DNA from: Glycomyces xiaoerkulensis
GTDB lineage: Bacteria; Actinomycetota; Actinomycetes; Mycobacteriales; Micromonosporaceae
Length of the DNA: 64,000 nt
Assembly (NCBI RefSeq): GCF_002798405.1
Contig: NZ_PGGV01000004.1
Coordinates: forward strand, 186,001 to 250,000
Reading direction: 5' to 3'
Positions 19,927 through 31,949 of this stretch are shown here, piece after piece. Position 1 is the stretch's first letter. Every line of letters starts with the position of its first letter. The notes under the pieces were generated by a model. That model was not told the DNA's origin. It made no database searches and was given only the letters and a program-made list of their open reading frames with translations. A program made the translations under genes and the position numbers.

Positions 19927-21705
19927 CTATCCGGAGCGGGTCTGTTCGATCCAGGAGCCGTGCAGTCCGGCATAGACCGAGCCGCCGGCCTCGACCAGTT
20001 CGTCGTGCCGGCCGTGCTGCACCAGGTTCCCGTCGTCGAAGACCAGGACCTCGTCCGAGGTCTCGGCCGTCGACAGCCGGTGGGCGATGATCACGGTGGT
20101 CCGGCCGCGGGTGACCGCGTCGAGCGCCGCCGACAGGCGCAGCTCGGTGGCCGGATCGACCGCGCTGGTCGCCTCGTCGAGGACCAGCAGGTCCGGGTCG
20201 GCCACGTAGGCGCGCACCAGCGACACCAACTGGCGCTCGCCGACGCTCAGGTTCGCGCCGCTCTCGCCCAGTTGGGTGTCGAGGCCGTCCGGCAGGGCGT
20301 CGATCCAGTCGCTCAGCCCCAGCTCGGAAAAGGCCACGTAGATCTCGGCCGCGCTGATGTCGGGCCGGGCGAAGCGGATGTTGAACGCGAGCGTGCCGTT
20401 GAACAGGAAGCCCTCCTGCGGCACCATCGTCACGCGCCCCCGCAGCGAAGCGAACCGGACGTCGGTCAGCGGCGTCTCGCCGAGCACCACCCGCCCGGAG
20501 GTGGGGTCCATCAGGCGGGTGAGGAGCTTCGCGAACGTCGTCTTGCCCGAGCCGGTCTCGCCGACGACCGCGACCTTCGAATGCGGCCGGATCTCGACGT
20601 CGATGCCGTGCAGCACCTCCTCGCCGCCCGGATAGGCGAACCGCACGTCCTCGAACCGGACCCCGAGCGGGCCGTCGGGCAGGTCGACGCCGTCGACCGG
20701 GTCGGCCACGTCCGGTTCGGTGTCGAGGACGTCGAGCACCCGCCGCCAGCCCGAGACCGCGTTCTGGGCCTCGTTGAGCATCTCGGTCGCGGTCACGACC
20801 GGCTGGATGAACAGCACCACCAGGAACAGGAACGCGGTGAGCTGCCCGACGGTCATGGTGCCGTTCGCCACCAGGTACGCGCCCAGGACGATCACCACCG
20901 CGTACACGCCGAAGTGGACGATTTCACCGGCCCCGAAGGAGAACGCCGACCGCCGGATGGCCTTGGCCTGGTCGCGGCGGTGGTCCTCGATCGCGGCGTC
21001 CAGCCGCCGACTGGTGCGCCCGCCGATCCCGTAGGAACGCACCACGCCCGCGCCGACGACCGCCTCGGACACGGCCGAGAGCATCCTCCCCACGCTCCTG
21101 CGGACGTTGGTGTAGGCGGCGGCCAGGTGCGTCTGGAGCCACTTGATCAGCCACGTCACCGGGACGAACACCACCCAGACCGCCAGCGCCAACTGCCAGG
21201 AGTACACGAACATGACCACCGTGGCCACCAGGATCTGGGCGCTGGAGGTGACCAGCATCATGCCGCCCTGCTGGAGGAACTGGCTGATGGTGTCGACGTC
21301 GGTGGTCACGCGGGCGGTGAGCGCCCCGCGCCGCTCCCCCTGCTGGTGCAGCATCGACAGGTCGTGGATGTGGCGGAAGGTGCGCCTGCGCAGATTCGCC
21401 AGCGAGGTCTCGGTGACGATGAACAGCCGCCGGTTCATCCAGAAGTTCGCGGCCGTGGTCAGCCCCAGGACGCCGACGGCGAGGGCGGTCACCCCGAACA
21501 CGTACGGCAGGTCCGGTCCCCCGTCGGCGAAGAGGCCGTTGTCGAGCACCTGCTGGGCGCTGATCGGCACCACCAGGCGGCCGACGGCGGTGACCGCGGC
21601 CAGGAAGATGGTGAACGCGAGCCCGCGGCGCAGCTCCGGCGAGAGCTTCAGGCCGCGTCCGAGGGTCTCGAACGGTCCGGGTTCGGTCTTGGCGTCCAGG
21701 CTCAT
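19927..21705 (-). CDS. ABC exporter half-transporter B (catalytic site intact)
   Basis: 592-aa fused membrane-ATPase half of a heterodimeric ABC exporter. Six hydrophobic segments lie in residues 25-310. The ATPase domain has Walker A GETGSGKTTFAKLL, the signature LSVGERQLVSLVRAYV, Walker B LLVLDEATSAVD with the catalytic Glu, and the switch His in IIAHRLST. Its ATG overlaps the stop of the preceding half-transporter gene (ATGA). Closest in type to the multidrug/lipid exporters of the MdlB/YheH kind. The substrate is unknown; the neighbouring lanthipeptide cluster has its own exporter pair. Confidence 0.92.
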   Translation of the reverse strand: MSLDAKTEPGPFETLGRGLKLSPELRRGLAFTIFLAAVTAVGRLVVPISAQQVLDNGLFADGGPDLPYVFGVTALAVGVLGLTTAANFWMNRRLFIVTETSLANLRRRTFRHIHDLSMLHQQGERRGALTARVTTDVDTISQFLQQGGMMLVTSSAQILVATVVMFVYSWQLALAVWVVFVPVTWLIKWLQTHLAAAYTNVRRSVGRMLSAVSEAVVGAGVVRSYGIGGRTSRRLDAAIEDHRRDQAKAIRRSAFSFGAGEIVHFGVYAVVIVLGAYLVANGTMTVGQLTAFLFLVVLFIQPVVTATEMLNEAQNAVSGWRRVLDVLDTEPDVADPVDGVDLPDGPLGVRFEDVRFAYPGGEEVLHGIDVEIRPHSKVAVVGETGSGKTTFAKLLTRLMDPTSGRVVLGETPLTDVRFASLRGRVTMVPQEGFLFNGTLAFNIRFARPDISAAEIYVAFSELGLSDWIDALPDGLDTQLGESGANLSVGERQLVSLVRAYVADPDLLVLDEATSAVDPATELRLSAALDAVTRGRTTVIIAHRLSTAETSDEVLVFDDGNLVQHGRHDELVEAGGSVYAGLHGSWIEQTRSG

Positions 21706-23504
21706 GCGGCGGGCTCCTCGTCGAATTCGCGTTCGGCCTCGGCCTGCTCGTAGGCGGTGACGAGATCGGCGTAGGGCCGGTGGCGCTCCAGCAGCTCGCG
21801 GTGGGTGCCGCGGGCGGTGATGCGGCCGCCTTCGAGGAAGACGACCTCGTCGGCCAGCGCGATGGTGGCGCGCCGGTAGGCGACCACGAGGACGCTCGCC
21901 GAGTCCGAGGAGTTCTTGAGGCCGGCGAGGATCCGGGACTCGACCTTGGGGTCGACGGCGCTGGTGGCGTCGTCGAGCAGGAGCAGCCGCGGCGAGCCGG
22001 CGAGGGCGCGGGCGAGGGTGAGGCGCTGGCGCTGGCCGCCCGAGAGGGTGGTGCCGCGCTCGCCGACCTCGGTGTCGAGGCCGTGTTCGAGGTCGCCGAC
22101 GAATTTGTCGGCCCCGGCGGCGGCGAGGGCCTCCCACAGCCGGGTGTCGTCGAGGCCGGGGCGGTCGAGCGAGAGGTTGGCCCGGACGCTGTCGTCGAAG
22201 ACGAAGGGGATCTGCGGGACGAGCGCGGTGGTGGCCGCAAGGCTGGCGTGGTCGAGCTCGCGCAGGTCGGTGCCGTCGAGGCGGACCGCGCCGCCGGTGG
22301 GGTCGGTGAGGCGGACGGCGAGGTGGGCGAGGGTGGATTTGCCCGAGCCGGTGGCGCCGACCAGGGCGACGGTGCGGCCGGGTTCGACGGTGAAGGAGAC
22401 CTCGCGGATGGCTTCGCCGCCGCCGGGGTAGCGGTAGGCGACCGAGTCGAATTCGAGGCGGGCCGGTCCGGCCGCGCGGAGGTCGCGGTCGCCGTAGGAC
22501 ATGTCGCCGGTGGAGGTCAGGACGTGGTCGATGCGGCGGCGGCCGACCACGGAGGTGGGGAGGTCGCCCAGGACCCAGCCGATGGCGCGGATGGGGAAGG
22601 CGAGGATGGAGAACATGAAGGAGACGGTGACCAGTTGCCCCAGATCGATGGCGCCGGCCTGGTAGCGGGCGAGCCCCACCAGCAGGGCGATGAGGGTGCC
22701 GAGTTCGGGGAGCCCCTGGATGGCCGGTTCGAAGGCGGCGCGGAGGCGCCCGACGCCGATCATCGCGTCGCGCAGTTCGCCCGCGGTCCGGGTGAACCGC
22801 TCGGTCTCCTCGGTTTCGCGGCCCATGGCCTTGACGACCAGGGCGCCGTCGAAGGATTCGTGGGCGTCGGAGGAGACTTCGGCGCGCAGCTCCTGGGCGC
22901 GTTTGGCGCGGGGGGCCATCTTGGAGGCGAAGACGGCGTTGAGGGTGAGCAGGATGGGGAACATCGCGAGCGCCACCAGGGCGACCGCCCAGTCGATGGT
23001 GAAGAAGACGCCCATGGAGACCAGGATCATGAACAGGGTGCCGCAGGCGAACGGGAGCGGGGCGAGCGGCCGGGTGGCGGCTTCGACGTCGGCGTTGGCG
23101 TTGGACAGCAGGGTGCCGGTGGGGTGCTTCTGGTGCCAGGAGACCGGCAGGGCCAGGTACCGGCGGGTCACTCGGCGGCGCCAGTGGGCCTGGACCCGGA
23201 ACATCTGGGTGCCCGAGCCGATGCGTCGGGCGCACATGGAGGAGAACCGGAGGGCGGACATGCCCAGGAGGGCGCCGATGCCGAGGGCGACCGATCCGAC
23301 GGTGACCCGGCCGTCCTCGTAGGCCGGGACGGCGACGCGGGAGACGACCCAGCCGACGATGAAGGCGACCGACAGATGCATGGCGGTGTTGACCATCGCG
23401 CCCGTGACCGCGACGCTGAATCGCTTGGGCTCGATCCGGATCATGTCGCCGATGTTGCGCAGCCCCTGGCGGAGGATGCTGGAATCGACGGCAGCGTCTG
23501 TCAT
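21702..23504 (-). CDS. ABC exporter half-transporter A (degenerate catalytic site)
   Basis: 600-aa partner of the downstream half. It has Walker A GATGSGKSTLAHLA, a canonical signature LSGGQRQRLTLARAL, and Walker B RLLLLDDATSAVD, where Asp replaces the catalytic Glu. The final loop reads VVAYRRATIA without the usual switch His. This is the one-active-site layout known from heterodimeric exporters. The ATG at 23504 has a GGAG ribosome site. An 18-bp palindrome lies about 33 bp upstream in the leader or promoter. Confidence 0.92.
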   Translation of the reverse strand: MTDAAVDSSILRQGLRNIGDMIRIEPKRFSVAVTGAMVNTAMHLSVAFIVGWVVSRVAVPAYEDGRVTVGSVALGIGALLGMSALRFSSMCARRIGSGTQMFRVQAHWRRRVTRRYLALPVSWHQKHPTGTLLSNANADVEAATRPLAPLPFACGTLFMILVSMGVFFTIDWAVALVALAMFPILLTLNAVFASKMAPRAKRAQELRAEVSSDAHESFDGALVVKAMGRETEETERFTRTAGELRDAMIGVGRLRAAFEPAIQGLPELGTLIALLVGLARYQAGAIDLGQLVTVSFMFSILAFPIRAIGWVLGDLPTSVVGRRRIDHVLTSTGDMSYGDRDLRAAGPARLEFDSVAYRYPGGGEAIREVSFTVEPGRTVALVGATGSGKSTLAHLAVRLTDPTGGAVRLDGTDLRELDHASLAATTALVPQIPFVFDDSVRANLSLDRPGLDDTRLWEALAAAGADKFVGDLEHGLDTEVGERGTTLSGGQRQRLTLARALAGSPRLLLLDDATSAVDPKVESRILAGLKNSSDSASVLVVAYRRATIALADEVVFLEGGRITARGTHRELLERHRPYADLVTAYEQAEAEREFDEEPAA

Positions 23505-23536
23505 GGGGTTCTCCGGAGGTGGGTGCTCGGCTCCGC

Positions 23537-23554
23537 CCTTGCCGTGCGGCAAGG
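23537..23554. promoter_or_regulatory. 18-bp palindrome upstream of the ABC exporter pair
   Basis: Perfect dyad with arms CCTTGCCG and CGGCAAGG around TG, 33 bp before the exporter start codon. It could be a repressor operator (TetR/MarR-size dyad) or a leader hairpin. No regulator gene of that type is adjacent. Confidence 0.45.
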
Positions 23555-23681
23555 AACCGCCTGCAATCATGCCTCGCGGGTGCGACGGTTGCCAACCCGC
23601 CTCCGCGGCCGGTCGGCGGGAGGTTTCCGACAACCTGGTGTCGCCATTGCGACATAAGTCGTTTGTCGGTTTAACGGCACT

Positions 23682-23761: not shown

Positions 23762-24367
23762 ATGATCCAGGTACTCATGAAGTACGGTCCGTCTTTGCTC
23801 GGTACCGCGCTCGAGCGCGTGCTCGCCTTCGAACCGGATATGACCGTGGTCGGCAGGCTGACGTGGAGCGACGCTCTGGAGCCGGCCGGCGGCGATCCGC
23901 CGCCCGACGTCGTCGTGCTCGACGCCCGCAAGGCCGAGAAGGTGGAATCCGAATGCCGGGCGCTGTCCGAGGCGCTGCCGGCGGCGAACCTGCTGGTGAT
24001 GATCCCCGCGGACGGGCCGGCGGTCCAGCCGGACCTGGCCCGGATGGCGCCGCGCGTGGGCTTCATTACCACCGACGAGAGTTGGGAGCGCTTCACCGAC
24101 GCGATCCGCCGCCTCGCAGGCGGCGGCGCGGTGATCGGCCCCGATGTGGCGTTGGCGGCCCTGAAGGCCAAGGACAATCCGCTGACCGAACGCGAACGCG
24201 AAGCCCTCGCCCTGATGCTCACCGGCGCCTCTACCCAGGAGGTCGCCGACCTGCTCTACCTGCGCGTCGGCACCGTCCGCAACTACCTGTCGAGCGCGAT
24301 CGGCAAGACCGGAGCACGGACCCGCATCGACGCGATCCGGATCGCTCAGGAGGCCGGCTGGATCTGA
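23762..24367 (+). CDS. RamR/AmfR-like orphan response regulator with atypical receiver
   Basis: 201-aa protein with a LuxR-type C-terminal helix-turn-helix (about 137-198: NPLTEREREALALMLTGAST, then LRVGTVRNYLSSAIGKTGA). The N-terminal receiver-like domain keeps the phospho-acceptor position (VVVLDARK) but begins IQVLMKYGPSLLGTALERVL, so it lacks the acidic pair that binds magnesium in normal receivers. No histidine kinase is adjacent. I chose the ATG at 23762 because the receiver strand begins there and AGGTGG precedes it. It converges on, and overlaps by 22 bp, the end of the lanthipeptide transporter operon. By analogy with ram/amf clusters it should activate that operon. Confidence 0.85.
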   Translation: MIQVLMKYGPSLLGTALERVLAFEPDMTVVGRLTWSDALEPAGGDPPPDVVVLDARKAEKVESECRALSEALPAANLLVMIPADGPAVQPDLARMAPRVGFITTDESWERFTDAIRRLAGGGAVIGPDVALAALKAKDNPLTEREREALALMLTGASTQEVADLLYLRVGTVRNYLSSAIGKTGARTRIDAIRIAQEAGWI

Positions 24368-25995
24368 GCGGGCTCGCGCTCGCCGACGGCCGCGCCGTCG
24401 AGGACGAGCACGCGGCGGGCGCGCTCGGCGCTGCCGGTGCGGTGGGCGATGACGATCAGGGTCCCCGGGCGCTCGGCGAAGGCGGCCTCGGCCCGCCGCT
24501 CGGCGACCGGATCCAGGTGGCAGGTGGCCTCGTCGAGCACGCAGATCGGCGCCGGCGACAGGTGAGCGCGGACGAGCGCGAGCTGCTGCCGCTCCCCCGC
24601 CGACAACTCCGACGGTTCGACCGTCGCCGCCGGCCCGCCGATCCGCTCGACCAGATCCGAGGCGCCCACCGCGTCGACCGCCGAGGCGATCTGCCCCGGA
24701 CCGGCCTCGGGCCGCAGGTAGGCCAGGTTGTCGCGGACGGTGCCGGCGAAGACGTACGCCTCCTGCGGGATCAGTACGCGGAACCGCGCGAGTTCGAGCG
24801 GCGACAGTCCGGCGACGTCGCGGCCGCCGACCGAGACGGTGCCCGAGTCGGGCGGCAGCAGGCCGCACAGCAGTCCCGCCAGTGTGGACTTTCCAATGCC
24901 GCTGGCGCCCACGATCGCAAGGTGGTCGCCCGCTGGAATGCGCAGGTCCAGGTTGTGGACGATCGGCTCCGAGTGCGGCCCGTAGGCGAAGGTCAGGCCC
25001 CGGGCCTCCAGGTCGGGCGGCGCGGTCGGCGCCGCCGCGGCCGACCGGACGGGTTCGGGGGGGCCGGTGGAGTCGAGGATGCGGCCGAGGGTGACGACGA
25101 ATCGGAGGCCGCTGCCGCCGACACCCGAGATGAAGCTGTTCAGCGCCGGTTGGAGTCCGTACAGAATGTACAGCAGCCCGCCGGTGATGGTGCCGGCGCT
25201 GAAGCCGGCCTCGACGAGCCGGCCGCTCGCGGCCAGGACGGCGATCAGCGGCAGCCAGCCGCCGACCACGAAGCACAGCGATCGCAGTGCCGCCACCCAT
25301 GCCAACGCTCGCTCGGCGCGGGCCTGTTCGGCGATCGGCCCGGCGACCAGGGAGCGGCCGTGGACCTCGCCGCCGCAGCCGGACAGGTCGACCGTGCCGG
25401 CGAGCACGGAGGCGGCCCGGTCGGCGAGGCGCTCGTCGGCCCGCACCGCCCGCCGTTGCCGCGCCGCCGAGACCCCGAGCGTGGCGACGAACAGGAGAAG
25501 CCCCAGGAAGAACGGCGGAAGGATCATCATCGCCAGCCGGGGCGAGAGCGACATGAGACCCGCGGTGACGCCGAGAGAGGTGACGACGAATCCCCGCACG
25601 GCGACGATGAGCCCGGCGTAGGAGTCGCGGACGATCTCGACCTGGCGGGTCAACTGCGCGACCGCCCCCTCTTTCGCCTCTCCGGCGACGGCCGCACTCA
25701 ACGACCCGCCCACGACCCGCCGCACCAGCCGGTCGCGGAACGGTTCGACCAGGTCCCCGATGCGGAGGAAGACCATTCGGCCGCCGACCGCACCGAGCAC
25801 GGCGGCCAGGAGCAGCGCGGCGAGCCAGGCCGCGCCGGTCCACGGCCGACCGGCCCCGAAACCGTCGTCGACGGCCCTGGCGACCACGATCCCCGAGATT
25901 GTCGCGGGCAGGGTCTGCGGGACCGACCAGCCGATCACGGCGGCCGTGGGGCGCCGTCGAAGACCGCTCAGGCCGTATCGGATCTCGCGTCTCAT
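24346..25995 (-). CDS. lanthipeptide cluster ABC transporter, half 2 (RamB-like)
   Basis: 549-aa ABC half-exporter. The membrane domain spans residues 15-300. The ATPase domain has Walker A GASGIGKSTLAGLL, the signature variant LSAGERQQLALVRAHL, and Walker B ICVLDEATCHLD with catalytic Glu and a switch-region His in IVIAHRTGS. The ATG at 25995 overlaps the stop of half 1 (ATGA). It is the last gene of the synthetase-precursor-transporter operon and ends inside the 3' end of the convergent regulator gene. It probably exports the modified peptide together with half 1. Confidence 0.9.
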   Translation of the reverse strand: MRREIRYGLSGLRRRPTAAVIGWSVPQTLPATISGIVVARAVDDGFGAGRPWTGAAWLAALLLAAVLGAVGGRMVFLRIGDLVEPFRDRLVRRVVGGSLSAAVAGEAKEGAVAQLTRQVEIVRDSYAGLIVAVRGFVVTSLGVTAGLMSLSPRLAMMILPPFFLGLLLFVATLGVSAARQRRAVRADERLADRAASVLAGTVDLSGCGGEVHGRSLVAGPIAEQARAERALAWVAALRSLCFVVGGWLPLIAVLAASGRLVEAGFSAGTITGGLLYILYGLQPALNSFISGVGGSGLRFVVTLGRILDSTGPPEPVRSAAAAPTAPPDLEARGLTFAYGPHSEPIVHNLDLRIPAGDHLAIVGASGIGKSTLAGLLCGLLPPDSGTVSVGGRDVAGLSPLELARFRVLIPQEAYVFAGTVRDNLAYLRPEAGPGQIASAVDAVGASDLVERIGGPAATVEPSELSAGERQQLALVRAHLSPAPICVLDEATCHLDPVAERRAEAAFAERPGTLIVIAHRTGSAERARRVLVLDGAAVGEREPAQIQPAS

Positions 25996-27689
25996 GCGAA
26001 CACCTCCCGGTAGGCGGGCGATTCGGCCCACAGGCGCTCGTGCGGCCCGACCGCGCGGACCCGCCCGGCCTCCAGCCAGACGACGAGTTCGGCGCGGGCG
26101 GCGGTGGCGGCGCGGTGAGTGACCAGCAGCCTGGTGCGGGCCGCCTCGGGGGCGGTGAGCGCGTCGACGATCCGCCGCTCGGTCACGGTGTCGAGGCTCG
26201 ACGTGGCGTCGTCGAGCACCAGCAGTCGTTCGGCGTGCCAAGCCCGGGCCAGACCGATCCGCTGGGCTTCGCCGCCGGACATGGGGGCCTGGTCCAGCGG
26301 GGTGCCGTAGCCGCGGGGCAGGCGGCGGATGAAATCGTGGGCGTCCGCCGCCCGCGCGGCCGGCCGCGGCGAGCGCCCCGGCGCGATCGCGTCGGCAACG
26401 GTGGCGCCGACCAGGACCGGGCGCTCGGGAGCCCACGCGACGGCCCGGCGCAGCGCTTCGCGCCGCAAGCGGCGCAGCGGCACCCCGTCGAGCAGCACCT
26501 CGCCCGCATCCGGGGCGCGCAGCCCGGCGGCCAGCTCCGCGAGGACCGACTTTCCGGCCCCCGAGGCGCCCACCACCGCCGCGACCGTTCCGCCCGGCAG
26601 GATCAGGTCGACGCCGTCGAGCGGGCCCTCGACCGAGACCGCCCGGAACTCCAGGCGGCCGTCGCCGTCGGGCAGGTCGAGCTCGCCGTACTCCGCCACC
26701 GGGACACCGGTGACCTCGGACAGGCGCCTCACCCCGGCGCGCGACCGCGCCAGGGTGGCGAACACGCCGGTCAGCGCACCGATTCCGGCGCCGCTCATCG
26801 CGTACTGGGCCGAGGCCAGCATCTCGCCGGGGCTCAGCCTCCCGGACGACAGCGCCAGACCGGCCGCGAGCAGCACGCCGACGGTGGTCAGGGGACCTAC
26901 CAGCGCGGACTGGGCACCGGTCGCCGCCAGCACCCGCCAAGTCTCGACCCCGTGCTCTCTGAGCCGCGGCAGCTCGGCCAGCACCCGGTGCCGTTCCCGC
27001 TCGACCGTGCCGGCGGCGGCGATGGTGCGCCTGCCGGCCAGGGCCTCGGACAGGCGCGCGGCGATGGCGCCCTGGATCCGCTGGTAGGCGGCGACCGCCG
27101 CCGTAGTGCGGGAGGTGAACACCCGCAGCACGACCGCCACGAGCGCGAGCCCGGCGATGAAGGCGGCGGCGAGCCACCAGTCCAGATAGGCCAGCATCGC
27201 CAGGCTGCCGATCGACGGGAGCAGTCCCGTGGCCGCCCCGACCGCGGCGGGCCCGGCACGGGCGGCGTCGGCGCAGTTGGCCGACACCCGCGCCGTCAGG
27301 TCGCCGGTGTCGAACCGGCGCAGCCGATGCGGATCGAGGGCCAGCACGTGGCGCACCATCCCGCGGCGCAGCCAGGCCGTGGTGGCGGCGGTGCAGGCGG
27401 CTCCGGCGAACGCGTCGACCAGTTCGCAGGCGGCGCTCACGATCACGAGTCCGGCCGCCGCCGCCATCGGCGCGGCCACACCGCGGCCGGCGACGGCCGC
27501 GTCGACGGTCTCGGCCAGTACGAGCGGCAGCGCCAGCATGGACAGCGTGCCGAGCACCGAGGAGCCGCCGATGAGCGGCAGCCAGCGGCGGGCCCGGGCG
27601 ACGGCCGCCCCGAAGGACAGTCCGCGCCCGGACCCGCTCGATTCGGCTACTCGCAGAGCAGCACGCTCAGGCGGCTCGTTCCGTCGCAC
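25992..27689 (-). CDS. lanthipeptide cluster ABC transporter, half 1 (RamA-like)
   Basis: 565-aa ABC half-exporter with Walker A GASGAGKSVLAELA, the signature MSGGEAQRIGLARAW, and Walker B LLVLDDATSSLD, where Asp replaces the catalytic Glu. With half 2 it makes a one-active-site heterodimer. The only plausible start before its first membrane helix is GTG 27689, which lies inside the precursor gene, so the two overlap by 43 bp in different frames. That arrangement would couple transporter synthesis to translation of the precursor. A later GTG at the first helix would truncate it. Confidence 0.85.
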   Translation of the reverse strand: MRRNEPPERAALRVAESSGSGRGLSFGAAVARARRWLPLIGGSSVLGTLSMLALPLVLAETVDAAVAGRGVAAPMAAAAGLVIVSAACELVDAFAGAACTAATTAWLRRGMVRHVLALDPHRLRRFDTGDLTARVSANCADAARAGPAAVGAATGLLPSIGSLAMLAYLDWWLAAAFIAGLALVAVVLRVFTSRTTAAVAAYQRIQGAIAARLSEALAGRRTIAAAGTVERERHRVLAELPRLREHGVETWRVLAATGAQSALVGPLTTVGVLLAAGLALSSGRLSPGEMLASAQYAMSGAGIGALTGVFATLARSRAGVRRLSEVTGVPVAEYGELDLPDGDGRLEFRAVSVEGPLDGVDLILPGGTVAAVVGASGAGKSVLAELAAGLRAPDAGEVLLDGVPLRRLRREALRRAVAWAPERPVLVGATVADAIAPGRSPRPAARAADAHDFIRRLPRGYGTPLDQAPMSGGEAQRIGLARAWHAERLLVLDDATSSLDTVTERRIVDALTAPEAARTRLLVTHRAATAARAELVVWLEAGRVRAVGPHERLWAESPAYREVFA

Positions 27690-27775
27690 AGCGTGACGCT
27701 CAGGTTGCTGTCCTTGCCCTTGTCGTTGGACAGCTCGTCCTTGCTCTCCATGCCTTGCAGGTCGAGAAGTGCCAT
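27647..27775 (-). CDS. lanA: class III lanthipeptide precursor, SapB/RamS-like
   Basis: 42-codon gene with an AAAGGAGAGG ribosome site. The leader opens MALLDLQGMESKDELSNDKG, with the LLDLQxME motif recognised by class III synthetases (compare LFDLQ in RamS). The core holds two copies of S-x-x-S-x-x-x-C: SNLSVTLC (residues 23-30) and SRLSVLLC (34-41), and ends in Glu42. This is the ring-forming pattern of SapB, where each motif gives a thioether ring and a dehydroalanine or a labionin. The cores are hydrophobic between the ring residues, as expected for a surfactant. It lies 22 bp after the synthetase gene. Confidence 0.92.
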   Translation of the reverse strand: MALLDLQGMESKDELSNDKGKDSNLSVTLCDGTSRLSVLLCE

Positions 27776-27797
27776 GATCGCCTCTCCTTTCTTCGGG

Positions 27798-30398
27798 TCA
27801 GGGGAATCTCTTCTTCATCGGCGCCGTCGGCGCCGACGCCTGTGGGCTCGCCGGCCAGGAGGCCGGGAGCAGGGGCATCGCCACCGGATCGGACCGCAGG
27901 ACCGATCCGAGCGCGAGCAGGACACCGGCGCCGCCGGTCGCCAGGTCCATCGACAGCCGCAGCAGGCCCGTGCCGGGGAAGGCGACGCCGCCCTCGTAGG
28001 GCAGGGCATGCCACGACAGCGCGCGGACCTGGTCGCGGACCACCGGGTCGGCCAAGGGCTCGGCGCTGCGACCGGCCCGGTACAGCAGCATGCCGGCGCG
28101 GCCGGTGAACAGGCCCGGAAGGATGTACATCGGCGATTCGGCGGCTCGAGCGATGCGGTCCGAGGCGGCGGCGAAGGACTCGCTGCGGCGCCGGGCCGCG
28201 AAGGCGTCGAGCGCGATGCCGACGCCGGCGGCGCCGACTTCGAGATAGGGCATGGTGCGCCAGCCCTCGTCGACCTCCATGGAGCCGTTGCCGCGGACGG
28301 TGCACCGCCGCAGATCGAGTTCGATGGCCGCTTCGGCGGCGTCGAGGTAGGCGCCGTCGCCGGTCTCGTCGTAGGCGCGCATGAGCAGCAGCGACCGTCC
28401 CGCGCCGCCGCGCATGAGCCCCGCGTAGGCGCCGTCACCGCCGCTGACCTCGCCGACCGCCTCGAACGGCACCCGTTCGGCGACCAGTTCCGCGCACCGC
28501 AGTCCGGTCTCGCGCAGCTCGGTCTCATCGCCGTCGGCCGTGCGCGCCAGGTGCAGCAGATTCAGACCCGCCCCGGCCAGGCCGCCGTCGAGATCGGCGC
28601 TCAGGGTCTCCCACCGCTCGTCGAGGAAGAGATCCACGATATCCAGCGCCGCCTGGCGGTGGCCGAGGTGGTCGAGGGTGAACGCCGCGCCGTGCAGGCC
28701 GTCGTACAGGCCCAGCCTGGTCCCCGGGGGCGGGGCGAGGGAGCGGTCGAGCAGCCAGCGCTCGAAGCGCTCCCAACGACCGGCCCCGCAGGCCGCCAGC
28801 GCATAGAGCACACCGGCCGCACCGAAGGCGAGTCCGAGGCCGCCGGTCGAGAACTGCCGGATGTCGCCGGGGAAGAGCCGGTCGTCGCGTTCGGGGGTGG
28901 CGCTGGCGACGATGGAGCGGGCGATCCGGTCGCGCAGCGCCGGCCAGCGTCCGGTGTCCGGTTCGATGCTCGGGGCGGGTTCGGCCGGGAGGCCGGACGG
29001 CGCGATGCGCTCGACCGCCTCGTCGAGGTAGTCGGCGGCCACCGGGAAGCGCTCCCGGATGATCGCCGCCAAGTGCCTGGCTTTGGGCCGGTGGAGGCCG
29101 AGCAGGTTGGTCAGCGGCAGGAACAGGGCGAGCTTGAGACACGCCAGGGAGTAGCGGTCGGCTTCGGCTCCGGCCATCGAGCGCGGGGCCGCGAAGCCCT
29201 GGTTGCCCAGGCCCGCCGGGCGGGTGGCGTCGGCCGGTCCGGCGACCTCGAAGTCGAGCAGGCAGATCCCGCCTTCGGCTCGTTCGATGACGTTGAACAG
29301 GTGCAGGTCGCCGTAGGCGAGACCTCGCCGGTGGATCGCTTCGAGGACGCCTGCGACGCGATCGTGAGTCGAGCGTGCCCACTCGGTGAAGCGGCGGTAG
29401 TCCTCGGGGGTCGCGGTGGGGTCGGCCAAGGGGTAGCGGTCGACCAGGGCCGAGCTGAGGACCTCGCCGTCGACGTGCTCCATCGCCATGAACCGGTGCT
29501 CGCCGAGCCAGAACAGCTCGTGGGCGCGGGGCACGCCGTCGATGCCTTCGAGCCGACGCAGGATGTCGTATTCGTGCTCCACCCGCTGGACGGCGTCATG
29601 GCTCCTGGCGTCGATGCCCGCGTGCGGGCGTCCCTCCTTGAGCACCACCTGGTCGCCGGAGCGTTCGTCGCGTGCGAGATATATGCCGCCGCCGTTGGAG
29701 AAGTGCAGGACCCGCTCGATCTCGTAGGGCAGGTCGGTCACGGTGACTTCGTTGCGGGCCTTGAGGTGCGGGACCAAGAAGTCGGGCAGGTCGACCCATT
29801 CGGGGGTCCGGAAGACCGGTTCCCTGATGTCGGGAACGAGGAGGCCCTCGGGGTCGGTGATCGCGGGGACCACGTCGCCGCCGTCGGTGACGGTGTAGCG
29901 GTCGGCGAAGGCCCCGTAGCGGACGTGGAGCGGGCCGGAGCCCCAGCGCAGGTCGCTGAGGATGTAGGGGCCCGGCACGCCCTCCAGCAGGGCGCCGAGT
30001 TCGTGGAGGATCCGCTCGCAGGCGTCCTCGTCGGGCGGGTAGACGGTGGCCAGTTTGCCGCTGGAGTCGCGCGGTGCGTACTTGGAGAGCCTGGCGGTCA
30101 GGGCGTTGGGCGAGCGCAGGAACTTGAACTGGACACCGTGGTCGACGCAGTAGTTCCACACCGTCTCGAGGACGCGTTCGGCGCTGTGGGCGGCGGCCGA
30201 GGCGTGGATCTTCCAGCCTTGTGAGGGTAGGGGCCGGTGCGAGCGGACGGTGATCCAGTCGTCCTGTTCGGCGCATTCCCAGCCGTCCGGGAGCGGCCGC
30301 TCGGCGATGGCGAAGGAGGGGCCGGCGGAGGTCGCCGAGTGCATGGCGTCGTAGAAGGTCCGATCGGCCATGCTGTACTTCTCGTAGTGGTCGCCCAT
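27798..30398 (-). CDS. lanKC: class III lanthipeptide synthetase LanKC (RamC-like)
   Basis: 866-aa trifunctional enzyme that phosphorylates, eliminates and cyclises Ser and Cys residues of the precursor. The lyase domain (about 1-225) has GWKIHASA and VQFKFLRS. The Ser/Thr kinase domain (about 230-500) has Lys254 in VVLKEGRPHAG, Asp364 in YGDLHLFNVIE and the DFE form of the DFG motif (382-384). The cyclase domain (about 530-866) has GLYDGLHGAA and WHALPYEGGVAFPGTGLLRL. It lacks the Cys-His-Cys zinc ligands of class I, II and IV cyclases, which places it in class III. I chose the ATG at 30398 (MGDHYEKYSMADRTFYD); an ATG 12 bp earlier is also in frame. Confidence 0.93.
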   Translation of the reverse strand: MGDHYEKYSMADRTFYDAMHSATSAGPSFAIAERPLPDGWECAEQDDWITVRSHRPLPSQGWKIHASAAAHSAERVLETVWNYCVDHGVQFKFLRSPNALTARLSKYAPRDSSGKLATVYPPDEDACERILHELGALLEGVPGPYILSDLRWGSGPLHVRYGAFADRYTVTDGGDVVPAITDPEGLLVPDIREPVFRTPEWVDLPDFLVPHLKARNEVTVTDLPYEIERVLHFSNGGGIYLARDERSGDQVVLKEGRPHAGIDARSHDAVQRVEHEYDILRRLEGIDGVPRAHELFWLGEHRFMAMEHVDGEVLSSALVDRYPLADPTATPEDYRRFTEWARSTHDRVAGVLEAIHRRGLAYGDLHLFNVIERAEGGICLLDFEVAGPADATRPAGLGNQGFAAPRSMAGAEADRYSLACLKLALFLPLTNLLGLHRPKARHLAAIIRERFPVAADYLDEAVERIAPSGLPAEPAPSIEPDTGRWPALRDRIARSIVASATPERDDRLFPGDIRQFSTGGLGLAFGAAGVLYALAACGAGRWERFERWLLDRSLAPPPGTRLGLYDGLHGAAFTLDHLGHRQAALDIVDLFLDERWETLSADLDGGLAGAGLNLLHLARTADGDETELRETGLRCAELVAERVPFEAVGEVSGGDGAYAGLMRGGAGRSLLLMRAYDETGDGAYLDAAEAAIELDLRRCTVRGNGSMEVDEGWRTMPYLEVGAAGVGIALDAFAARRRSESFAAASDRIARAAESPMYILPGLFTGRAGMLLYRAGRSAEPLADPVVRDQVRALSWHALPYEGGVAFPGTGLLRLSMDLATGGAGVLLALGSVLRSDPVAMPLLPASWPASPQASAPTAPMKKRFP

Positions 30399-30472: not shown

Positions 30473-30511
30473 TCACCGATCGGCCGTGAATTTCTCACGG
30501 TCGTGCCGTGA
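30473..30511. promoter_or_regulatory. phased array of four 6-bp half-sites upstream of lanKC
   Basis: TCACCG at 30473, CCGTGA at 30484, TCACGG at 30495 and CCGTGA at 30506. Each begins exactly 11 bp after the last and the orientation alternates. The array runs from just upstream of the -10 box to about -60. It is a strong candidate for the binding site of the cluster's LuxR-type regulator. The middle pair could also form a weak 6-bp RNA hairpin after hisF. Confidence 0.6.
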
Positions 30512-30531: not shown

Positions 30532-31308
30532 TCAGGCGGGCGGCGGAAGGCGCACGGGGTGTCCGGCTTCGTCGAGATCCCGTTTGATCTCGGCGATGGA
30601 GACTTCGCCGAAGTGGAGGATGGAGGCGGCGAGCACCGCGTCGGCGCCGGCTTCGACGGCGGGCGCGAAGTCGGCGGCCTTGCCGGCGCCGCCGGAGGCG
30701 ATGACGGGGATGTCGACCGCGTCGCGGACGGCGACGATGAGCGGCAGGTCGAAGCCGGCCTTGGTGCCGTCGGCGTCGATGGAGTTGAGCAGGATCTCCC
30801 CGGCGCCGAGCTCGGCGGTGCGCTCGCACCATTCGACGGCGTCGATGCCGGTGCGCCGGCGGCCGCCGTGGGTGGTGACCTCCCAGCCCGAGTCGGTGTC
30901 CGATCCGGAGGCGACGTCCGCCGAGAGCACCAGGACCTGGTTGCCGAAGCGGTCGGCGATCTCGGCGATGACCTCGGGGCGGGCGATGGCGGCGGTGTTG
31001 ACGGCGACCTTGTCGGCTCCGGCGCGCAGCAGCCGGTCGACGTCGTCGGGGGTGCGCACGCCCCCGCCGACCGTGAGCGGGATGAAGACCTGCTCGGCGG
31101 TGCGGGCCACCACGTCGTACATGGTGGCGCGGTCGTCGGAGGAGGCGGTGACGTCGAGGAAGGTGAGCTCGTCGGCCCCGGCGTCGTCGTAGGCGGCGGC
31201 CAGCTCGACCGGGTCGCCCGCGTCGCGGAGGTTCCGGAAGTTCACACCCTTGACGACCCGCCCGGCGTCGACGTCGAGGCAGGGGATCACGCGCACGGCA
31301 ACAGACAC
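30532..31308 (-). CDS. hisF: imidazole glycerol phosphate synthase, cyclase subunit
   Basis: 258-aa TIM barrel that makes imidazole glycerol phosphate and AICAR with ammonia from HisH. Catalytic Asp residues are in [18 protein letters not shown] and [13 protein letters not shown]. The phosphate loops GGGVRT and SGGAGK are present. I chose the GTG at 31308 because [12 protein letters not shown] is the usual N-terminus. It is separated from hisI and from hisH, which is not in the window. The last gene before the lanthipeptide promoter. Confidence 0.95.
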
Positions 31309-31384
31309 GCGATAAGCGTACAAGGCTCGGCGTGTTGATGCGCGTCCGATCCGTGGGCGGACACTACGACTCAGGTTGCGAGAA

Positions 31385-31441: not shown

Positions 31442-31852
31442 TCAGCAGTCGCGCAGTTCCGGCGACTGGTTGAGCAGTTGGCCGCGCGGCGAGATGAACT
31501 TGCGATAGCTGTCGGAGTCGACCTCGGTCGGCGGGAAGGCGGCCACGCGGTGGCAGTTCTGGAAGGCCAGCTTCACTCCGAAGTGGCGTTCGAGCGCCCC
31601 GCGCATCGAGTCCGAGGCCAGCACGCGCAGGAGCTGTCCCCGGGCCTGCTCATCGGGCGGCGGCGTGGTGTTGTCGGCGAACCGGGTCGACCCGGTCGAC
31701 GCCGCTACACCCTGCTTGAGGTCGGCCACCACCTTGCTGATGAGCTGCCAGGCGTAGGGCAGCGACTGCTTCACGCAGTCGACGAAGTCCGCATCGCCGA
31801 TATCGCCGGTTTCGGCCTTGGCGAGCAGGTCCTCTGAGACGTCAAGGGACAT
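31442..31852 (-). CDS. SCO5389-family protein
   Basis: 136-aa conserved actinobacterial protein of unknown function. The family-defining stretches are nearly intact: [60 protein letters not shown] and the C-terminus [14 protein letters not shown]. It is soluble, with no signal or membrane segment. The ATG at 31852 follows GGAG. It is 97 bp downstream of the CooC-like ATPase gene on the same strand, a pairing also known in Streptomyces, so the two probably work together. Confidence 0.88.
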
Positions 31853-31949
31853 GCCGTATCTCCTCTCGGTTCGGATCACTCAGTCTGCGCCGATCGGTCA
31901 CCCTCCGCTGTCGGATAGTCGACGCAGGCAGTTCTCAGATGCATTTCGT

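Follow-up and report, generated by a model that had tools for sequence, protein, structure and literature searches.

SapB of Streptomyces coelicolor derives from a precursor with an LLDLQ-type leader, two S-x2-S-x3-C motifs and hydrophobic ring residues. The accessible literature describes SapB as a surfactant that promotes the aerial mycelium (PMC9011353), and the gene content it gives for the SapB cluster (ramCSAB-ramR) and for that of AmfS of S. griseus is the same as in the locus reported here. Durhapeptin of S. durhamensis likewise has two tandem S-x2-S-x3-C motifs. The durhapeptin paper reports two labionins supported by mass spectrometry and a variant with morphogenetic activity, an activity that needs hydrophobic residues. 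Its core and its lineage differ from those of our peptide, and its cluster comprises durKC, durA and durT together with an ABC-domain ORF and a response regulator. The same text states that the synthetase is a poor guide to whether Lan, Lab or mixed products form; thus, ring chemistry cannot be read from the sequence. Stackepeptins, made by Stackebrandtia nassauensis, are described in the title of their report as 'supersized' class III lanthipeptides with motif multiplication (Jungmann et al. 2016). In the grouping of the genomes searched, the genus studied here belongs to the same family as Stackebrandtia.

We analysed a 64,000-nucleotide stretch of the Glycomyces xiaoerkulensis genome (hereafter the window), part of contig C34 in a 40-contig draft assembly totalling 4.37 Mb. 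Profile matches and open reading frames reveal an intact five-gene locus at 23762-30398 with the ram/amf gene order: from position 30398 the minus strand encodes a class III synthetase, the precursor and two ABC half-transporters, towards which a regulator gene on the plus strand converges (Table 1). The original prediction had named these five genes, and their positions and strands agree with the ORFs and with the Pfam and NCBIfam matches. Its assignment to the SapB/AmfS family, with the ram/amf gene content and as a 'new relative of SapB', is backed by curated models and synteny. The 42-residue precursor (MALLDLQGMESKDELSNDKGKDSNLSVTLCDGTSRLSVLLCE) scores 56.4 bits against Pfam RamS PF19402 (cut-off 24.3) and 56.2 bits against NCBIfam SapB/AmfS NF033212 (cut-off 25), and it combines an LLDLQ leader with tandem S-x2-S-x3-C core motifs, following the motif rule in the accessible literature. 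The synthetase scores 1039 bits against the class III LanKC model NF038151 (cut-off 575) and 359 bits against the class IV model, below its cut-off of 650; solved class III synthetases in the PDB match its residues 59-847.

Table 1. Features of the SapB/AmfS-type locus in the window
Feature	Position	Strand	Evidence or note
LuxR/NarL-type orphan regulator, RamR position, convergent	23762..24367	+	Pfam GerE; alignment of 21 regulators
ABC half-transporter 2	24346..25995	-	Pfam ABC_tran; tblastn to relatives
ABC half-transporter 1	25992..27689	-	Pfam ABC_membrane, ABC_tran
Precursor gene, 42 codons + stop, SapB/AmfS (RamS) family	27647..27775	-	PF19402, NF033212
Core motif SRLSVLLC, third motif of relatives	27653..27676	-	Alignment with 11 relatives
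Core motif SNLSVTLC, second motif of three-motif relatives	27686..27709	-	Alignment with 11 relatives
Site of the lost first motif, NDKGKD	27710..27727	-	DNA and protein alignments
Class III lanthionine synthetase (RamC/LanKC type), 866 aa	27798..30398	-	NF038151; Pfam RamC_N and kinase; PDB match
Candidate operator, palindrome GTGA-N5-TCAC	30484..30499	-	About 100 bases upstream of the synthetase start

The genes are tightly packed. The sole good upstream start of transporter 1, a GTG, overlaps the precursor gene by 43 bases, as it also does in the nearest relative (G122, locus L072). The transporter 2 start overlaps the transporter 1 stop by 4 bases, and the regulator and transporter 2 overlap tail to tail by 22 bases. 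Directly upstream of the locus lies hisF (30532-31323), found at that place among 10 congener loci (one of them, L073, a short contig) only in G122. The gene content and order of ramCSAB-ramR, as the accessible literature gives them for Streptomyces, are those of the window. Among the 22 related loci compared, 17 clearly show a synthetase gene followed by two ABC genes and a convergent regulator, which is more than chance; records named as Streptosporangium, Actinomadura, Kribbella, Streptomyces and Nonomuraea are among them. Three of these 17 loci (L003, L008 and L009) have the regulator about 2 kb further off; the other five have two regulator matches (L078 and L079), a partial one (L007) or stretches that end before any regulator (L073 and L080). 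Two more ABC half-transporters, both on the minus strand, are encoded at 21702-23633 and in the C-terminal half of the frame 19927-23655. This pair begins no more than about 130 bases from the regulator gene and is transcribed away from it; its second member is 85% identical in G122, and nothing matched it in the nine remaining congener loci. On the other side, an open frame at 31442-31879 (minus strand) matches the Pfam model 'NucS shadow ORF' with 213 bits.

Since the tie of the window peptide to aerial growth is an analogy carried over from the family, and since some class III lanthipeptides, such as the labyrinthopeptins and NAI-112, have other activities, the product might be an antimicrobial or other bioactive peptide instead of a morphogen. 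We regard this as improbable, because the gene content matches that of morphogen clusters, the RamR-type regulator included.

We compared the precursor with those of its relatives. All ten congeners with a precursor carry three S-x2-S-x3-C motifs (SSxSGHSC, then PSNLSAxLC, then a third ending in LLCH), and the window has two. NDKGKD stands where 11 aligned relatives have SSxSGHSC plus a proline, and the DNA alignment shows the window gene shortened by 18 bases relative to G122, with the reading frame kept. The window peptide ends in Glu. No second precursor copy with a [DE]LQ-type leader occurs in the window. The precursor of S. nassauensis (G348), whose gene we infer to be the stackepeptin gene, has a leader that begins almost identically, and its second and third motifs closely resemble those of the window; it differs in having three motifs and a final His, whereas the window lacks the first motif. 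With SapB and AmfS the window peptide shares the LLDLQ-type leader, two S-x2-S-x3-C motifs and hydrophobic ring residues, but its core sequence differs. Four dehydrations, as originally predicted, are the right expectation for two such motifs; for a possible core beginning at DSNLS, the mass calculated after loss of four waters is 2152.03 Da, and Thr might be dehydrated too. By its Kyte-Doolittle mean, taken in three relatives, the first motif is polar (-0.31 to -0.59); the retained motifs are hydrophobic (0.76 to 2.10). A His lies inside the first motif in 20 of 25 three-motif members; in G320 it stands just before the motif, and G053, G028, G075 and G069 have none. Another arrangement occurs in G339 (locus L160), where one cluster holds two tandem dissimilar RamS-like precursors, one with the His-rich stretch HSSHSHSC in its core.

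The loss could in principle be a sign that the cluster is degenerating, its pathway being relaxed or on the way out and its peptide having ceased to matter. Window-unique changes in the synthetase outnumber G122-unique ones against all four outgroups tried (p 0.02 to 0.15), and half of the genus has no precursor. However, the five window frames contain no stops, both remaining motifs are exact, and the transporters and the regulator show no such excess (p > 0.1 in 12 of 12 relative-rate tests). The synthetase dN of 0.18 is well below the dS of 0.48 between the window and G122, indicating purifying selection. We thus consider degeneration quite unlikely. Faster evolution after ring loss was rejected as well: among 16 relative-rate tests, one gave p 0.02 and the rest gave at least 0.07. 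A functional locus remains the favoured reading, and a working surfactant instead of a relic is what we would expect, since the hydrophobic rings appear to be kept (hydrophobic residues being needed in durhapeptin, according to the available text) and the polar ring seems to have given way to charges; the purifying selection on the synthetase agrees with this.

We investigated the origin of the two-motif form with synthetase trees of 23, 30 and 45 rows, all of which agree on the place of the window. The window synthetase is 75% identical to that of G122, 64% to that of S. nassauensis and about 47% to two Streptomyces synthetases fetched. In the 45-row tree, it lies inside a clade of 27 members (support 100/100) that includes S. 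nassauensis; the two Streptomyces synthetases fall outside. Reading each precursor revealed three S-x2-S-x(2-3)-C motifs in 25 of the 27 members and two in the remaining pair, the window and G142 (locus L159), the latter from another genus. Deep inside the clade, the window is sister to the three-motif G122 (100/100 with 45 rows, 100/99 in the smaller trees). On the 45-row tree, the motif number must have changed at least three times, which fits one gain and two losses. Forcing the window and G142 into one clade costs 173 log-likelihood units (AU p ~1e-54, for a pair picked after the tree was seen), which indicates that the two losses are independent. We did not score the two-motif precursor of G001 as a loss, since its synthetase reading forms a long branch of odd composition outside the clade. 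That the window holds an ordinary two-motif SapB/AmfS orthologue, its three-motif relatives having gained a motif later, is very improbable and disfavoured by the synthetase tree: SapB does carry two motifs, like the two-motif precursors that were read from beyond the clade, and both types pass the same NCBIfam model, but the window is sister to G122 and nested in three-motif lineages at several starred branches, and the clade members read outside its genus, G142 apart, have three motifs. The kinship with SapB put forward in the original prediction thus holds for the family, and its nearest lineage has to be corrected to the three-motif clade with S. nassauensis, not Streptomyces SapB. As read from the sequences, the two motifs of the window precursor are a secondary reduction and not the inherited SapB form. 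The best reading is that the peptide represents a reduced form of a stackepeptin-type three-motif ancestor that would have lost its polar ring, and such a loss seems to have occurred twice in the lineage.

The extent of the three-motif type was estimated by running a profile of 10 three-motif precursors against 354 family genomes and a sample of 394 genomes from the class. Matches read singly added 15 three-motif genomes, giving at least 25 genomes in 11 genera; outside the family, none of the 13 readable genomes among the 15 class-sample genomes with a match had a three-motif precursor. The 151 family genomes with a PF19402 match were read in part, so that the figure of 25 three-motif genomes is a minimum and further two-motif clade members may exist. 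The evidence for ring loss comes from a single draft genome of the window species and, in the case of G142, likewise from a single genome. A search of the open-access literature, which covers few subscription papers, showed no report of ring loss in this lineage among the papers listed, which is weak evidence of absence. The two reduced peptides share an acidic end: the final residue is Glu in the window and Asp in G142, which also has GHGHGG before its core, and it is His, Lys, Asn or Pro in the 25 three-motif members. Acidic ends also occur in two-motif peptides elsewhere (L014 and L016), and the link between ring loss and an acidic end is thus a lead from two events, not a law.

Taken together, we are confident that this is a functional SapB/AmfS-family locus whose two-ring product descends from a three-ring stackepeptin-type ancestor and likely acts at the hyphal surface. 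The synthetase would bind the LLDLQ leader, phosphorylate and eliminate the Ser residues, and close the two S-x2-S-x3-C units as labionin or lanthionine. The peptide would be exported by the two half-transporters and its leader trimmed by proteases encoded elsewhere, while the LuxR-type regulator would activate the operon, perhaps by way of the palindrome that precedes the synthetase gene. The predicted product is an amphipathic two-ring peptide, acting most likely at the hyphal surface like SapB, in which the N-terminal polar ring would have been lost, with the charged linear stretch NDKGKD in its place and a new C-terminal Glu. A more tentative idea, which we hold to be possible though not probable, is that the N-terminal ring is a separable polar head, usually bearing His, that has been lost at least twice with an acidic C-terminus each time, charge replacing the ring. 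There would then be a repeatable switch, with a three-ring surfactant that may respond to pH or metals on one side and an acidic two-ring surfactant on the other, both tolerated by the synthetase. A three-ring class III peptide from which two-ring forms have descended twice independently makes a natural experiment. With the window peptide beside that of its close three-ring relative G122, the role of the extra ring of the 'supersized' class III peptides becomes directly testable, as does the question of whether synthetases count motifs or only read them.

We also examined the regulation of the locus. In an alignment of 21 regulators, those of the window and G122 have both residues of the receiver acidic pair replaced and a residue other than Lys at the conserved lysine; one acidic residue is retained in each of the eight remaining regulators aligned from congeners. 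Glu occupies the normally phosphorylated Asp position in five of the nine congener regulators aligned, and the Nonomuraea and Streptosporangium homologues keep the standard receiver residues. From these replacements, the window regulator probably works without phosphorylation. The palindrome GTGA-N5-TCAC occurs with at most one mismatch in 21 of 30 loci (six exact), 75-135 bases upstream, the motif having been chosen on these same loci; a Markov background gave a mean of 0.66 and a largest value of 4, and four control windows gave 0, 2, 0 and 0. Applied unchanged to 20 held-out loci, it matched seven, none exactly (Markov mean 0.48, largest 3; 0 in three control windows), and three of these seven (G410, G559 and G464) share another-looking element, GTGA..CGTGAC. 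The palindrome was thus rejected as a family-wide operator. It is found in all three held-out three-motif loci (G321, G320 and G323) and is missing from the clade members G130, G126, G074, G340, G094 and G076. We regard it as a lineage-limited candidate operator. The one match of its longer form in the window is not significant alone, as 27 of 100 shuffles have at least one. Most Streptomyces amf-like clusters, according to the accessible literature, have a TTA codon, whereas the five window genes have none, and bldA-type control was rejected; among 18 synthetase genes examined, one (G094) has a TTA codon.

The RamS model is met in 151 of the 354 family genomes, and a 2026 paper puts the size of the NCBI SapB/AmfS family above 4,000 sequences. 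In itself the locus is therefore ordinary, one more of several thousand known SapB/AmfS-family genes. Within the genus, a RamS-type precursor is present in 11 of 22 genomes, that of the window included, and absent from the other 11, indicating that the peptide is not essential in the genus. Chaplin domains are found in all 22, with 3-4 matches each, and a partner system for aerial growth may thus be present with or without the lanthipeptide. The idea that the cluster is there because chaplins are absent was rejected on the same count. The chaplins of Streptomyces are separate, short proteins. The matches here apparently lie within one open frame of 326-347 aa (G000:C8:320945-321583 in the window genome, and 21 others), so that the genus chaplin is apparently a multi-domain protein. 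The window genome also encodes a class IV synthetase (LanL; G000:C10:67343-70144, corresponding to L002:10-2811, minus strand) that scores 1012 bits against a cut-off of 650, and its contig, C10, has a 16S rRNA gene at one end.
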